From: Megamonas hypermegale
GTDB taxonomy: Bacteria > Bacillota > Negativicutes > Selenomonadales > Selenomonadaceae
NCBI RefSeq assembly: GCF_900187035.1
Contig: NZ_LT906446.1
Coordinates: forward strand, 1,240,001-1,304,000
Length of the DNA: 64,000 nt
Direction: 5' to 3'
The notes beneath the pieces were generated by a model. It made no database searches, was not told where the DNA came from, and saw nothing but the letters and a program-made list of their open reading frames with translations. How positions within the stretch are numbered: position 1 is the first letter of the stretch; every line of letters starts with the position of its first letter. Of the stretch, positions 7,333-42,808 are shown piece by piece. The position numbers and the translations under genes are program-made.

Positions 7333-8571
7333 TTAAGCTTTTTTATCAGCATAAGTTATTACAGGAGCTTTTTTCTTCTTAATTGTATCTTTTGTAATTT
7401 CGCACGAAACAGCACCTTTTTCAGAAGGCACTTCAAACATTACATCGCGCATAATTCTTTCCAAAATAGCTCTAAGTCCTCTAGCGCCCGTTTTACGTTC
7501 GAGAGCTTCTTTTGCAATTAAATGCAGAGCTTCATCATCGAAATGGAGTTTAACTCCATCCATTTCCAAAAGTTTTACGTATTGTTTTACTAATGCATTT
7601 TTAGGCTTAACCAAAATATCCACTAAAGCCTGTTCATCTAAAGATTCCAAAGTAACAACTACAGGAACACGTCCTATAAATTCTGGTATAAAACCACTTT
7701 TTAATAAATCTTCTGGTAAAACATGCTTCAATAAATCGCCTGTATTTTGTTTTACTTTACTTTTTACATCAGCACCAAAGCCAATATTTTTATGTCCAAG
7801 GCGCGCATCGATTATCTTTTCAATGCCATCAAACGCACCACCGCAGATAAATAAAATATTAGTTGTATCAATTTGAATTAATTCTTGATGCGGATGTTTT
7901 CTACCACCTTGAGGTGGTACACTGGCTATTGTTCCTTCCAGTATTTTCAAAAGTGCCTGTTGCACACCTTCACCAGAAACATCTCTCGTTATTGATGGAT
8001 TTTCTGATTTTCTGGCAATTTTATCAATTTCATCAATATAGATGATACCCTTTTGGGCTTTTTCAATATCATAATCCGTAGCCTGTATCAATTTCAGCAA
8101 AATATTTTCGACATCTTCGCCGACATATCCTGCCTCCGTGAGTGATGTTGCATCGGCTATAGCAAAAGGAACATTCAATATTTTCGCCAAAGTTTGAGCA
8201 AGTAATGTCTTACCACTACCAGTTGGCCCGAGCATTAAAATATTTGACTTTTGTAGCTCAACATCATCTTGTCGTGGCGCTCTATTTATTCGTTTATAGT
8301 GATTATAAACGGCAACTGATAAAGATTTTTTTGCATCATTCTGTCCAATTACATATTGATTTAATACATCATAAATCTCTTTAGGTTTTGGCAAATCTCT
8401 CAATTCGATTTGTTCGCCATCATTCATCTCTTCTTCGACAATTTCATTACAAAGCCGTACACATTCATCACAAATATAAACACCAGGACCTGCTACGAGT
8501 TTACGCACTTGGTCTTGAGTTTTACCACAGAATGAACATTTCATTTGTCCTTTGTCTTCACCGAATTTCAA
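7333..8571 (-). CDS. clpX: ClpX, ATP-binding subunit of ClpXP (housekeeping copy), TTG start
   Basis: 412 aa from TTG 8571, which has AGAGGTG eight bases upstream and gives the usual ClpX N-terminus ([17 protein letters not shown]); an ATG eight codons earlier sits inside the ribosome binding site. The zinc-binding domain has Cys12, Cys15, Cys34 and Cys37. AAA+ features: Walker A GPTGSGKT at 115-122, pore loop GYVG at 148-151, Walker [10 protein letters not shown], an RKH loop, the ClpP-docking IGF loop and a GARGLR sensor 2. It unfolds substrates for ClpP, encoded just upstream. A divergent second ClpX is at 39930-41255. Confidence 0.95.
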
Positions 8572-8611
8572 CCTATATTCACCTCTTTTATACAAAACCC
8601 TTAAACCATTT

Positions 8612-8673: not shown

Positions 8674-9270
8674 TTATTTACTTTTTTTACCCGTACGAAC
8701 GATAACTTCATCAATCAAACCATATTCTTTAGCTTCAATAGCTGACATGAAATTATCTCTTTCTGTGTCAGCCATGAGTTGTTCTACAGATTGACCTGTA
8801 TGTTGTTTTAAGATATCAGTCAAAATTTCACGAATACGTAAAATTTCACGTGCCTGAATTTGAATATCTGTAGATTGTCCCTGTGCGCCACCGAGTGGTT
8901 GATGAATCATTATGCGTGAATATGGTAGTGCATATCTTTTGCCTTTTGCACCTGCTGCCAATAATACAGAACCCATGCTAGCAGCTTGTCCAATACAAAT
9001 TGTAGATACATCTGGCTTAATATACTGCATAGTATCATAAATAGCTAATCCAGCAGTAACTACACCACCTGGACTGTTAATATAAAGGTGAATATCTTTA
9101 TCCGGGTCTTCAGACTCTAAAAAGAGAAGCTGTGCTATTACCACATTAGCTACATTATCGTCAATAGGGCCGCCCAAAAAAATGATACGGTCTTTTAATA
9201 GACGCGAATATATATCGTAGGCACGTTCGCCTCGTCCCGATTGTTCAACTACCATTGGTACATAGTTCAT
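8674..9270 (-). CDS. clpP: ClpP serine protease
   Basis: 198 aa, normal for ClpP. The catalytic triad is Ser98 (GQAASMGS), His123 (MIHQPLGG) and Asp172 (DTERDNF). Fourteen subunits form the degradation chamber that works with ClpX (encoded next) and possibly with the ClpX paralogue at 39930-41255. GGGGTG lies eight bases before ATG 9270. The gene is 43 bases behind tig. The short N-terminal stretch before the axial loop fits the usual propeptide. Confidence 0.96.
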
Positions 9271-9313: not shown

Positions 9314-10606
9314 TTAAGCTTCTACAGCGCTATCGATTACGAAGCTAGCAGCTTTTTTATGAAGTACAGTTGCTACTAAATTACCGATGCTACCGTTCTT
9401 TTTAATGATTTTGCTTACTTCTTGTGGAGTTGTGCCATAAGTTGCAGCGAGAAGAGCAATTTCAGCGTTGATATCAGCATTTTCAACTTTGATATCTTCT
9501 GCTTTTGCAACAGCATCAAGCATGAGGTCAGTTTTAACTGCAATAGAAGCACTTTCTTTATACTGTTCACGGAGTTTATCCATGTCCATGTTAGTGTATT
9601 TGAGGTAAGCATCTAAGTTCATGCCTTGGTTTTCAAGGTTTACAGCAAGTTCATTAATCATGTTGCTTACACGGTTTTCAATCATAACTTCTGGAATATC
9701 TACAGTGATATTATCAGTAGCTTGTTTTAAGATTTCGTTACGACGTTTTGTATCAGCTTCACGTTCCATGCGTTTTTCAGTGTTTTCGCGAAGTTTAGCT
9801 TTCATATCTTCGATGTTTTCATAAGAAGTGGATTCTTTTACGAATTCATCAGTGAGCTCTGGAAGCTGTTTATGTTTAATGCTGTTAACTTTGCAATGGA
9901 ATACAGCAGCTTTACCAGCTAAATCTTTAGCATGATATTCTTCTGGGAATGTTACATTAACATCTTTTTCTTCGCCAACTTTGAGGCCGATGAGTTGGTC
10001 TTCAAAGTTATCAATGAAGGAATGGGAACCGATTTGAAGTGGATAATCTTTGCCTTCGCCGCCTGGGAATGCTACGCCATCAACTTCACCTTTGAAATCT
10101 AAAGTGATGAAGTCATCGTTTGCTACTGTAGCGCCTTCTTCAGCGTCAATCATTTTTGCATGATGATTTAAAATGTTGTTTACTTGTTCATCAATTTGTT
10201 CATCTGTAACAACTACTGCATCTTTAGCAACTTTTAATCCTTTGTATTCACCAAGAGTAACTTCTGGCATAGGAGTGATTGTAGCTTTGAATACTACATC
10301 TTTGCCTTCTTCTAAAGTTACGATATCCACCTGTGGACGGTCTACTGGGTCAAGATTTTCTTGTTTTAAAGCTGCATCGAAAGCTTTCTGTGCAACGCGG
10401 TCAAAAGCTTCATCCATGATAGCTTCTTTGCCAATATGCATTTCTAAAACGCGGCGTGGTGCATGACCTTTTCTGAAGCCAGGAATATTTACACGGTTTG
10501 CAAGGGATTTGCAAGCAGCTTTAATACCTTTATCGAGTTCTTCAGCTGGAACTTCAATTGTAAGTACCACCTTATGATTTTCAATCTTTTCTGTAGTAAC
10601 GTTCAT
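9314..10606 (-). CDS. tig: Trigger factor, ribosome-associated chaperone
   Basis: 430 aa. The N-terminal ribosome-binding domain carries the signature GFRKGHAPRRV at 43-53; a FKBP-type peptidyl-prolyl isomerase domain spans about 150-240; the C-terminal helical chaperone arms fill the rest. It binds ribosomal protein uL23 at the exit tunnel and shields nascent chains. AGGAGG precedes ATG 10606. It is first in the tig-clpP-clpX-lon-engB run, a conserved Firmicute order linking folding of new chains to their disposal. Confidence 0.96.
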   Translation of the reverse strand: MNVTTEKIENHKVVLTIEVPAEELDKGIKAACKSLANRVNIPGFRKGHAPRRVLEMHIGKEAIMDEAFDRVAQKAFDAALKQENLDPVDRPQVDIVTLEEGKDVVFKATITPMPEVTLGEYKGLKVAKDAVVVTDEQIDEQVNNILNHHAKMIDAEEGATVANDDFITLDFKGEVDGVAFPGGEGKDYPLQIGSHSFIDNFEDQLIGLKVGEEKDVNVTFPEEYHAKDLAGKAAVFHCKVNSIKHKQLPELTDEFVKESTSYENIEDMKAKLRENTEKRMEREADTKRRNEILKQATDNITVDIPEVMIENRVSNMINELAVNLENQGMNLDAYLKYTNMDMDKLREQYKESASIAVKTDLMLDAVAKAEDIKVENADINAEIALLAATYGTTPQEVSKIIKKNGSIGNLVATVLHKKAASFVIDSAVEA

Positions 10607-39826: not shown

Positions 39827-39855
39827 TTGATAATATTGTAGGAAAAATCTATAAT
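39827..39855 (+). promoter_or_regulatory. Promoter of the ClpX paralogue
   Basis: TTGATA (39827-39832), 17 bases, TATAAT (39850-39855), about 75 bases before the start codon. No CtsR-like heptad repeat was recognised. Confidence 0.7.
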
Positions 39856-39929: not shown

Positions 39930-41255
39930 ATGAAGAAAAATTCGCAAGAAGTAAAGCATAATTGCAGTTTTTGCAATCGCACTATAACTATACATTCACA
40001 ATACGATATGCCAATTTATGACCCACAGACGGGTTTTGCTATCTGCAAAAATTGTATCAAAGACATTTATAATTTTATTGCTGAACATGATAAACGTGAA
40101 GAAAAAGCTGTAAATCGCAAATTTGCTGAAAGCTTAGATGATATTCTCGCTAAAAATAAACCACACGTTATCAAAGAATATTTAGACCAATACATCATCA
40201 ATCAAGATTATGCCAAAAAAATTCTTTCTGTCGCTGTTTATAACCATTATAAACGCATGAAATACGGCTATACACATGACCCCAAAGACATGAATATCGA
40301 AAAATCAAATGTAATCATGCTCGGTCCATCTGGTTGCGGTAAGACGGCTATGCTCCAGCATTTAGCAAAACTCTTAGACATTCCAATGGCTGTAACAGAT
40401 GCTTCTAGCCTCACTGAAGCTGGCTTTGTCGGCTCTGACGTTGAAGTTGCTGTACGAAATCTCTATTATGCCGCTGATAAAAATATCGAACGCACTGAAC
40501 ACGGCATAATCTATCTTGATGAATTCGATAAAATCGCCCGTAAATCCGGTGCTAATAATTCCATAACAGCTGACCCAGGTCATGAAGGTGTACAGCAAGG
40601 TCTTTTAAAAATGATTGAAGGTGGCGTCGTTGAATTTACAGCACAAGGACAACGCAAACACCCTGAAGCTCCTACAATCAAAGTAAATACGACTAATATC
40701 TTATTCATCGTTGGCGGTGCATTCGTCGGCATTGAAGATATCATTGCTAAACGTTTAAAAACAGACGCTACTTCCATTGGTTTCGGCGCTGAAGTACAAA
40801 ATAAAAACGATAAACCAAAATACAATAGCTTAATTCACAAAGTTCGTCCAGAAGATTTAATCCAATTCGGCATAATTCCAGAAATCATCGGTCGTTTGCC
40901 TGTAATCTGTACATTAGAAGAACTCAGCGAAGACGATTTACTGAAAATCTTAACAGAACCAAAAAATGCTCCAGTAAAACAGTATCAAGAACTTTTATCC
41001 ATGGATAATGTAAAACTAGAATTTGAAAAAGATGCCCTTTATGCTGTTGCACATAAAGCCATTGAACGAAAAACAGGTGCAAGAAGCTTACGCGGTATCT
41101 TAGAAGATGTTATGCTCGATATCATGTATGAAATTCCACAATCAAACGAACCACGTCGCGTCATCATCACTAAAGATTGCATCGAAAATCATACAAAACC
41201 AGAAATTTTACCGCTTGAAACAAGCAAAACAAATAAAACAACTGAAAATAATTAA
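39930..41255 (+). CDS. Divergent ClpX paralogue (AAA+ unfoldase)
   Basis: 441 aa, somewhat longer than the housekeeping ClpX (7333-8571). The zinc finger keeps four Cys (12, 15, 39, 42), but the gap between pairs is 23 residues rather than 18. Walker A GPSGCGKT 132-139, Walker B IIYLDEFD 193-200, RKH loop 242-244, ClpP-docking IGF 283-285, Arg finger 322 and sensor-2 Arg385 are kept, so ATPase and ClpP docking look functional. Differences: the pore loop is GFVGSD (usual GYVGED), and ITRDVSGEG has become ITADPGHEG. The C-terminus is a Lys/Thr/Asn tail. Single gene with its own promoter and terminator and no local clpP; it may serve special substrates or stress. Confidence 0.9.
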   Translation: MKKNSQEVKHNCSFCNRTITIHSQYDMPIYDPQTGFAICKNCIKDIYNFIAEHDKREEKAVNRKFAESLDDILAKNKPHVIKEYLDQYIINQDYAKKILSVAVYNHYKRMKYGYTHDPKDMNIEKSNVIMLGPSGCGKTAMLQHLAKLLDIPMAVTDASSLTEAGFVGSDVEVAVRNLYYAADKNIERTEHGIIYLDEFDKIARKSGANNSITADPGHEGVQQGLLKMIEGGVVEFTAQGQRKHPEAPTIKVNTTNILFIVGGAFVGIEDIIAKRLKTDATSIGFGAEVQNKNDKPKYNSLIHKVRPEDLIQFGIIPEIIGRLPVICTLEELSEDDLLKILTEPKNAPVKQYQELLSMDNVKLEFEKDALYAVAHKAIERKTGARSLRGILEDVMLDIMYEIPQSNEPRRVIITKDCIENHTKPEILPLETSKTNKTTENN

Positions 41256-41265
41256 ATATCTTTGC

Positions 41266-41310
41266 ATAAAAAATGTTGAGGCTAATGAATTCACCTCAAC
41301 ATTTTTATTT
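41266..41310 (+). terminator. Terminator of the ClpX paralogue
   Basis: AAAAATGTTGAGG (41269-41281) and CCTCAACATTTTT (41294-41306), 12-base loop. The same arms recur at 45652-45688. Confidence 0.92.
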
Positions 41311-41318
41311 TATATCGC

Positions 41319-41332
41319 AAAAAGCTGTTACA
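41319..41332 (-). terminator. Left arm of a terminator split by the insertion sequence
   Basis: AAAAAGCTGTTACA. Its complement TGTAACAGCTTTT lies at 42796-42808, on the other side of the IS element. Removing the IS and one CAT copy rebuilds a 13-bp hairpin with an 11-base loop, 12 bases behind the lysA stop codon. Confidence 0.8.
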
Positions 41333-41396
41333 CAAACATTGAACTGCACCCCAAAAGTTGGACAAAAAAAACAACTTTTGGAGGTGCAGTTTTTTT

Positions 41397-41909
41397 ATGA
41401 CTAAATACTCAAATGAATTTAAAGTTAAAGCAATTAAAATGGTTTTAAAAGGAGATTCTATTTATCATGTAGCTAAAATTCTAAACATGCCAAATACAGC
41501 TCCTCTTCGCAGATGGATATTTCATTATGAAAATGGTGGCATTTCACAACTTCTTCATAAAAATCGTAAATATACTCCTATCTTTAAACAAAAAGTTATT
41601 GAATATAAATGGCTACATCATTTATCATTAAATCAAACAGCAGCCAAATTTTCCATTCCTAATACTGGTACAATTTCTACATGGGAAAAATTGTATAGCT
41701 CTTATGGATTTTCTGGCTTAGTTTCTAAGAAACGAGGTAGACCATCTATGAAAAAATCTAAATCTAAAAATAAGGTTAACAAACCTAAAAAAGAACTTTC
41801 TTATGTTGAACAATTGGAACAAGAAAATTATCAATTAAGGATGGAAAATGACTTATTAAAAAAGTGGCATGCCTTAATGAAGCAATGGGAAAAGGAAGGA
41901 AGACACTAG
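41397..41909 (+). CDS. IS3-family transposase OrfA
   Basis: 170 aa from ATG 41397 (GGAGGTG upstream). Two helix-turn-helix units (about 5-55 and 60-115) bind the IS ends; KKRGRPS precedes a Lys-rich linker and a C-terminal leucine-zipper-like coiled coil (YVEQLEQENYQLRMENDLL). At 41858-41864 the in-frame heptamer A AAA AAG allows -1 frameshifting into orfB, which would yield an OrfAB transposase of about 453 aa. OrfA alone normally acts as a regulator. Confidence 0.93.
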   Translation: MTKYSNEFKVKAIKMVLKGDSIYHVAKILNMPNTAPLRRWIFHYENGGISQLLHKNRKYTPIFKQKVIEYKWLHHLSLNQTAAKFSIPNTGTISTWEKLYSSYGFSGLVSKKRGRPSMKKSKSKNKVNKPKKELSYVEQLEQENYQLRMENDLLKKWHALMKQWEKEGRH

Positions 41910-42757
41910 TTTTAGTAATTGCTAAATTAAGGAAAAAATATACTCTAAAAACCCTATTAAACTATACAAAATTAGCTAAAAGCACATATTATGATGCATT
42001 AAAAAAATTATCAAAAGAAGACAAATATAAAGGATTAAAAACATTAATTCATAATATTTGTAATAAAAATCATGGAAGATATGGATATAGAAGAGTAACT
42101 TTGCAGCTGCATAAACAAGGAATAAAAGTCAATCATAAAGTAGTTATGAGATTGATGAAAGAAGAAAATTTAACATGCAAGATAAGAGCAAAGAAATATA
42201 AATCGTATAGAGGGCAAGAAGGGAAAATAGCTAAAAATATATTAAATAGAAATTTCAAAGCATCAAAACCAAACGAAAAATGGGCAACAGATGTAACAGA
42301 ATTTGCATTATGTAATGAAAAAATATATTTATCACCAATAATAGATTTATATAACGGAGAAATAATAAGTTATAAAATATCGAAAAGACCAATACTAAAG
42401 CAAGTATTAGATATGGTAGAAGATGCAACAAGAAAGATAAAAGAAACAAAAGGAATAATTCTACATTCAGACCAAGGATGGCAGTATCAGAATAGAAGAT
42501 ATCAGGAGTTATTAAAAGAAAAAGGCATTATTCAAAGCATGAGCCGAAAAGGAAATTGCTTAGATAATGCCGTAATAGAAAATTTCTTTGGTTTGCTAAA
42601 AAGCGAATTGTTCTATTTAAAAAAATTTAAATCCGTTGAAGATTTTATAAAAGAGTTAAAATCTTATATAAAATATTATAATACAAAACGGATAAAGATA
42701 AAACTAAAAGGACTTAGTCCCGTAGAATACAGAACTAAGTCTCAATTAGTAGCTTAA
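41864..42757 (+). CDS. IS3-family transposase OrfB (DDE integrase)
   Basis: 297 codons in the -1 frame relative to orfA, beginning at GTG 41864 right after the slippery site; probably translated mainly as the OrfAB fusion. An N-terminal HTH_21 region (KNHGRYGYRRVTLQL) precedes the rve integrase core: first Asp in KWATDVTEF, second in ILHSDQGWQYQ, Glu in NAVIENFFGLLKSE. NTKRIKIKLKGLSPVEYR closes the domain. No stop or frameshift inside. Confidence 0.94.
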   Translation: MACLNEAMGKGRKTLVLVIAKLRKKYTLKTLLNYTKLAKSTYYDALKKLSKEDKYKGLKTLIHNICNKNHGRYGYRRVTLQLHKQGIKVNHKVVMRLMKEENLTCKIRAKKYKSYRGQEGKIAKNILNRNFKASKPNEKWATDVTEFALCNEKIYLSPIIDLYNGEIISYKISKRPILKQVLDMVEDATRKIKETKGIILHSDQGWQYQNRRYQELLKEKGIIQSMSRKGNCLDNAVIENFFGLLKSELFYLKKFKSVEDFIKELKSYIKYYNTKRIKIKLKGLSPVEYRTKSQLVA

Positions 42758-42795
42758 TTAATATGTCCAATATTTTGGGTGCATATCACATTTCA

Positions 42796-42808
42796 TGTAA
42801 CAGCTTTT
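42796..42808 (-). terminator. Right arm of the terminator split by the insertion sequence
   Basis: TGTAACAGCTTTT, complementary to 41320-41332. It stands 12 bases from the lysA stop codon but is now separated from its partner by 1.46 kb. Confidence 0.8.

Follow-up and report, generated by a model that had tools for sequence, protein, structure and literature searches.

Why would a bacterium that has an ordinary clpX gene and one ClpP also carry a second, stand-alone ClpX? A ClpXP system usually has one ClpX, and the substrate choice of its pore loops has been studied mainly through mutants of E. coli ClpX. The window analyzed here is a stretch of 64,000 nucleotides from Megamonas hypermegale, a member of the Selenomonadaceae, which are bacteria of the gut, rumen and mouth. 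It contains the canonical clpX (its product is referred to as ClpX1) and a second gene, clpX2. We propose, with a probability of roughly 0.7, that ClpX2 is a second stand-alone unfoldase of the ClpXP type, fixed in the Selenomonadaceae and serving its own substrates on the common ClpP.

The clpX2 gene and its changed loops

The open reading frame of clpX2 starts with ATG, has no internal stop and encodes 441 residues (Table 1). Its product is 50% identical over 392 residues to the canonical ClpX of the window, and the stand-alone ClpX-like gene reported in a preliminary description of this DNA is real and intact. The protein exceeds the cut-offs of two NCBIfam equivalogs, with 525.8 bits for NF003745 (cut-off 359) and 496.5 bits for TIGR00382 (cut-off 370.75). 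The AlphaFold model is of moderate quality (pLDDT 71, global TM about 0.4 to ClpX entries) and served to confirm the ClpX fold alone, not the geometry of the loops.

Table 1. Features of clpX2, its flanking regions and the canonical clpX (positions in the window; residue numbers of E. coli ClpX in the loops)
Feature	Position	Strand	Basis
Sigma-70-like promoter, TTGATA-N17-TATAAT	39827..39855	+	11/12 consensus match
clpX2, divergent ClpX paralogue of 441 aa	39930..41255	+	ORF, NCBIfam clpX equivalog, family orthologues
Zinc domain, N-terminal, C12xxC15-X23-C39xxC42, 5 residues wider than canonical	39963..40055	+	alignment
Walker A, GPSGCGKT	40323..40346	+	GP-G-GKT invariant; S134 and C136 fixed in ClpX2
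Pore-1 loop, GFVGSD, F at E. coli Y153	40422..40439	+	F in 55/56 ClpX2, Y in 26/26 ClpX1
Walker B, IIYLDEFDK	40506..40532	+	alignment
Pore-2 loop, SITADPGHEG; T199 kept, R200A/V202P/S203G/G204H; one-residue insertion (G207) before	40560..40589	+	fixed in 56/56 ClpX2, different in 26/26 ClpX1
RKH motif, kept; flanks changed, FTAQGQRKHPEAP replaces a 13-residue canonical stretch	40653..40661	+	alignment
IGF loop (ClpP docking), kept	40776..40784	+	alignment
Arginine-finger position R322 (GRLP)	40893..40895	+	column invariant in alignment
Sensor-2 arginine position R385 (GARSLR)	41082..41084	+	column invariant in alignment
Stem-loop, then T-rich tail; predicted intrinsic terminator	41269..41306	+	z -3.7; also an inverted-repeat pair
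Canonical clpX (ClpX1), comparison gene	7333..8595	-	TTG start

The promoter and terminator of its own that had been ascribed to the gene find support in the sequence, in the candidate -35/-10 box and the 3′ stem-loop. An upstream box resembling TTGAAA-N17-GATAAT, read by eye, is common to the clpX2 genes of many genera. The stem-loop is missing from the automatic terminator scan, since its loop is probably longer than the scan allows. The 200 bases upstream of clpX2 contain no good match to CtsR, CIRCE or LexA operators, and control by a stress operator was dropped on these grounds. Just downstream of the terminator lies an insertion sequence of the IS3-family type (41320-42808), with two transposase frames, an rve domain and imperfect terminal inverted repeats of about 45 nt. 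Transposase frames of this type are not called at the corresponding place in another genome of the genus (G007).

The sequences of 56 ClpX2 and 26 ClpX1 proteins were compared column by column, with E. coli numbering assigned through the alignment. The two groups have different fixed residues in about 60 columns, and those specific to ClpX2 cluster in pore-1, the helix after pore-1, pore-2, the flanks of RKH and the zinc domain. The positions for ATP binding, hydrolysis and ClpP docking lie outside the differing columns, save for conservative changes in Walker A. Walker A and B, the arginine finger, sensor-2, RKH and IGF are all kept in the alignment, in agreement with the earlier observation of Walker, RKH and IGF motifs in this protein, and the two loops read RKHPEAP and IGFGAEV. 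R322 and R385 are taken to be the arginine finger and the sensor-2 arginine, respectively, by their roles in E. coli ClpX.

The zinc domain is the adaptor-binding domain of ClpX. Five extra residues had been noticed between its cysteine pairs, and the alignment agrees (CX2C-X23-CX2C in ClpX2 compared to X18 in canonical ClpX). The Pfam model zf-C4_ClpX has no match in this ClpX2, yet the four zinc cysteines are invariant; the model was found in 7 of 22 aligned proteins, at most five of them ClpX1.

For pore-1, the GFVGSD reported earlier is present here and its change of Tyr to Phe is fixed in ClpX2 (Table 1); at the following altered position, Ala is more usual (51 of 56 sequences) than Ser. 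The reported ITADPGHEG is found at pore-2. Canonical R200 and V202 are replaced by Ala and Pro in every one of the 56 ClpX2 sequences, and ClpX2 is thus classed as a divergent ClpX paralogue rather than as canonical ClpX. V202 is kept in all ClpX1 sequences (26 of 26), in 19 further cellular ClpX and in 77 of the 79 viral ClpX with a readable motif. As a result, ClpX2 departs from other ClpX at a nearly invariant position, with two ClpX2-like phage proteins as the exceptions.

Judged from these patterns, the pore-2 change (R200A, V202P) looks decisive, rather than the conservative replacement of Tyr by Phe in pore-1. The side chains of Y153, V154, T199, V202, R228 and H230 of E. coli ClpX are reported to be critical for ssrA recognition, and V202A strongly raises KM, with values of 140-240 μM among the T199A, V202A and H230A variants (PMC7652416). 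V202 makes many of the substrate contacts of pore-2 in ClpXP structures (PMC7112951). Because V202A impairs E. coli ClpX, ClpX2 is predicted to be poor at handling ssrA-tagged proteins. Some recognition may remain, as T199, V154, R228 and H230 are kept, and what V202A does in E. coli ClpX might not hold for a proline in a rebuilt loop.

These fixed changes bear on two other explanations of the gene. ClpX2 could be a redundant spare ClpX for dosage or stress, and the Clp copies of Myxococcus can compensate for each other (PMC11423568). However, the altered substrate-contacting loops of ClpX2 have become fixed in all 30 genera, and a spare would retain the V202 that is seen in every other readable ClpX, bar the two phage proteins. 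This explanation is quite improbable. ClpX2 could also enter mixed hexamers with ClpX1 and tune its activity, as the two proteins share an ATPase core and a cell and are 50% identical. No result here favors such hexamers, and the many fixed differences would lower the odds of free mixing; we regard them as very improbable.

Distribution, selection and the protease set

Orthologues of ClpX2 (65-87% identity, some clipped by contig ends) are found in 148 of 151 Selenomonadaceae genomes and in all 30 genera. Among the three genomes that have no match, G089 is 80% complete. The other two (G068 and G101) have runs of 5,000 N at the syntenic place, and their lack of a match is not taken as loss of clpX2. 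These runs (L440:5002-10001 in G068 and L094:2002-7001 in G101) lie in complete genomes and mimic gene loss, and an 'open frame' of 1903 residues in G101 is an artefact of the N run.

Outside the family, the matches listed for the sampled Negativicutes and Bacillota genomes include at most one ClpX per genome, canonical-like and with 46-54% identity. No second ClpX was seen among the matches listed, which extend to E values of 1e-112 for the class and 1e-116 for the phylum; a weaker second copy would fall below these values. The pore-2 pattern DPGHEGVQQ occurs in at least 119 stretches over the genomes of 84,980 species. Among the 119 listed, 117 are from Selenomonadaceae or from MAGs labelled Selenomonadales or Veillonellaceae. 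The remaining two are actinobacterial (Catellatospora and Nocardiopsis) and are chance matches in proteins that are not ClpX.

Of 24 clpX2 loci drawn from different genera, about half place the gene next to rpmE, DUF1385, prfA and prmC in the opposite orientation, where rpmE is identified by a domain match and the other names are presumed from the reading of the open frames. The recurrence of this neighborhood suggests that clpX2 had one ancestral genomic place. No neighboring gene or known adaptor at the loci examined hints at a substrate of ClpX2.

Purifying selection on the gene is strong, with dN/dS values of 0.007-0.096 in 12 pairs of ClpX2 and 0.021-0.115 in five pairs of ClpX1, and the reading frame is open in all 56 unmasked ClpX2 sequences used. 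The preliminary description, which had neither the family-wide spread nor the jumbo-phage relatives of ClpX2, named a recent decaying duplicate with dN/dS near 1 as the case against its reading. With low dN/dS values and a family-wide distribution, clpX2 is not such a duplicate.

The canonical clpX can be read from a TTG at 8595 (Table 1), but the start at 8571 given earlier fits the orthologues better (M-KFG). Upstream are genes that we take, from their open frames, to be clpP (8674-9270) and tig (9314-10606), with lon presumably downstream. The genome has one ClpP, an HslU-like protein and two Clp_N proteins (837 and 867 residues), presumably ClpC- and ClpB-like; Clp_N proteins are also found in nearly all genomes of the class that were searched. 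The tmRNA tag, ANKEYALAA, is of the ordinary type, and the canonical ClpX is available for such tags. With all of these components present, ClpX2 fills no obvious gap in the protease set.

Three simple reasons for a second ClpX were set aside on this basis. A second ClpP as a dedicated partner is not general, as this genome has only one, and an absence of ClpC or ClpA does not account for it, given the Clp_N proteins here and nearly class-wide. An unusual tmRNA tag does not drive it either, since odd tags (DEFDYAYAA, DEAEYAYAA) are limited to part of the family and the others, including this genome, have the A..YALAA type. The tmRNAs with these unusual tags, in G016, G042, G010 and G038 (L276, L277, L278 and L279), have low scores (93 bits).

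Phage relatives and the origin of ClpX2

The DPGHEGVQQ pattern also matched one viral contig, of 206,782 bases, which encodes a ClpX of 464 residues directly after clpP. A second viral contig, of 224,101 bases, has a ClpX 76% identical to the first, likewise after clpP. The two contigs are IMGVR_UViG_3300023714_000002 and IMGVR_UViG_3300021255_004427 of IMG/VR. Both proteins score 394-396 bits to ClpX2, compared to 292-296 to ClpX1. They share with ClpX2 the ADPG[H/Q]EGVQQ of pore-2, the SG insertion, the wide zinc domain and GARSLR. In contrast to ClpX2, they keep the pore-1 Tyr (GYVGSD), their IGF loop is cut to a bare GFG, and clpP is directly upstream; their identity to ClpX2 is 49-50%. 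The shortened GFG loop may fit a dedicated phage ClpP. The presence of the ClpX2 signature and the shared insertions in two viral contigs with clpX immediately after clpP is, as read from the sequences, new here, and no further viral ClpX among the best 80 loci has the signature.

The surrounding module (L311:1246-9666 and L312:1092-9679) consists of genes for ThyX, a RecA-like ATPase, a 3D-domain protein, ClpP, ClpX, an uncharacterised protein and an SSB-like protein, and a gyrase-B-like gene follows in L312. No spacer link of the two contigs to a host was seen among the matches listed, which were only to clpX and to a stretch inside thyX. A ClpX is also encoded by the jumbo phages Lak, Bacillus phage G and Atu_ph07; the phage G gene lies immediately downstream of a ClpP-like one. 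Unlike ClpX2, these proteins keep RDVSG in pore-2, and they lie apart from ClpX2 in the tree. The clpX match of Prevotella phage Lak-A1 (L337) falls into two pieces across some 2.1 kb and looks interrupted by an insert, whereas the Lak-B copy is continuous.

ClpX2 forms one clade in the tree (support 99/99), with the two phage proteins as its sister (100/99, and 100/100 in a reduced set). The ClpX1 proteins of the Selenomonadaceae are placed within Negativicutes ClpX1, apart from ClpX2. A tree in which ClpX2 is held with the ClpX1 of the family is not rejected, with AU p values of 0.59 without the phages and 0.117 with them. The branches joining the ClpX groups are long (2.4-3.0 changes per site), which makes the position of the root unsafe. 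The kinship of ClpX2 with the two phage proteins is well supported, as their insertions are shared. Duplication within the family with fast change afterwards, acquisition from a phage and uptake by a phage are each compatible with the long joining branches and with the joint clade of ClpX1 and ClpX2 that is not rejected.

By the second of these scenarios, an ancestor of the Selenomonadaceae would have acquired clpX2 from a jumbo phage with clpP-clpX, and the function would be as proposed above. The contigs of 207 and 224 kb hold the only other members, among the best 80 viral loci, with the pore-2 motif, the insertion and the wide zinc domain, and their position as sister to all ClpX2 of the family fits this origin. 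The unsafe rooting argues against it, as do the AU values, with which in-family duplication is compatible; moreover, an early member of the family could just as well be the source from which the phages got the gene. Acquisition from a phage is thus possible, on the doubtful side. We suggest, just as tentatively, that a ClpXP subsystem with a new entrance rule (Pro202, Ala200, blind to ssrA) was exchanged between the family and its giant phages; as a fixed second unfoldase, it would use the host ClpP in the family, and in the phages it would come with a ClpP of its own and an altered docking loop.

Proposed role and comparison with known ClpX systems

We infer that ClpX2 forms an ATP-driven hexamer, which would dock on the ordinary ClpP of the cell through its kept IGF loops and deliver a distinct set of proteins to it. 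Substrate choice is probably rebuilt at the entrance of the channel, by Y153F in pore-1, R200A and V202P in pore-2 and the new flanks of the RKH loop, and the adaptor-binding zinc domain appears to be rebuilt as well. From the rebuilt entrance and zinc domain, ClpX2 would be expected to have its own substrates or adaptors and to handle ssrA-tagged proteins poorly. The preliminary description had considered a changed substrate choice with the same ClpP plausible. Its reading is supported in part: the gene is real and selected, the docking loop is kept, there is one ClpP, and the changes are in the substrate-contacting loops and the zinc domain. Its emphasis moves to pore-2.

Alternatively, ClpX2 may be an unfoldase or remodelling chaperone that works mostly independently of ClpP. 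Mitochondrial ClpX acts in this way on ALAS (PMC7077987), and ClpP-independent roles are described for ClpX-family proteins. In addition, clpX2 adjoins clpP in none of the 24 loci. On the other hand, ClpX2 and ClpX1 share the IGF loop (I/M-GFGA), whose conservation would be hard to explain without ClpP docking, and the phage relatives directly follow clpP. A role apart from ClpP is therefore unlikely.

If ClpX2 does have its own substrates on the common ClpP, the standard 'ClpX' annotation in Selenomonadaceae of the gut, rumen and mouth hides two different proteases. Cells that combine a normal ClpX and one ClpP with a family-wide natural variant, in which a key ssrA-contact position is fixed as proline, offer a ready test of the residues that determine specificity. 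Given the phage relatives, unfoldases of this kind may also have a part in contests between phage and host. In the open-access literature, a search for 'Negativicutes' and 'ClpX' found no paper, and one for 'Selenomonas' and 'ClpX' found none on this gene by title.

Canonical ClpX (E. coli and Negativicutes; TIGR00382/NF003745) has the same domain order as ClpX2, as well as Walker A/B, RKH, IGF, the arginine finger, sensor-2 and the four zinc cysteines. In comparison, ClpX2 has Y153F, R200A/V202P/S203G/G204H with an inserted residue, changed RKH flanks, a zinc spacing of 23 rather than 18 and no match to zf-C4_ClpX, and its gene is located outside the tig-clpP-clpX cluster.

Human mitochondrial ClpX is also a natural ClpX with changed ssrA-contact residues, and it does not degrade ssrA substrates (PMC7652416). 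Its T199 and H230 positions are both Leu, whereas ClpX2 keeps these two residues and alters V202 and R200.

The extra clpX copies of Myxococcus xanthus would be the closest precedent, in a single species and by likeness of description rather than by alignment with the ClpX2 of Selenomonadaceae. ClpX2 and ClpX3 of M. xanthus are encoded by isolated genes beside an essential clpP1-clpX1 and have their own roles, in the fruiting body and in heat (PMC11423568). They differ from the ClpX2 described here in that M. xanthus ClpX3 has no N domain or RKH, and M. xanthus ClpX2 has Lys for the Arg of RKH (PMC11423568).
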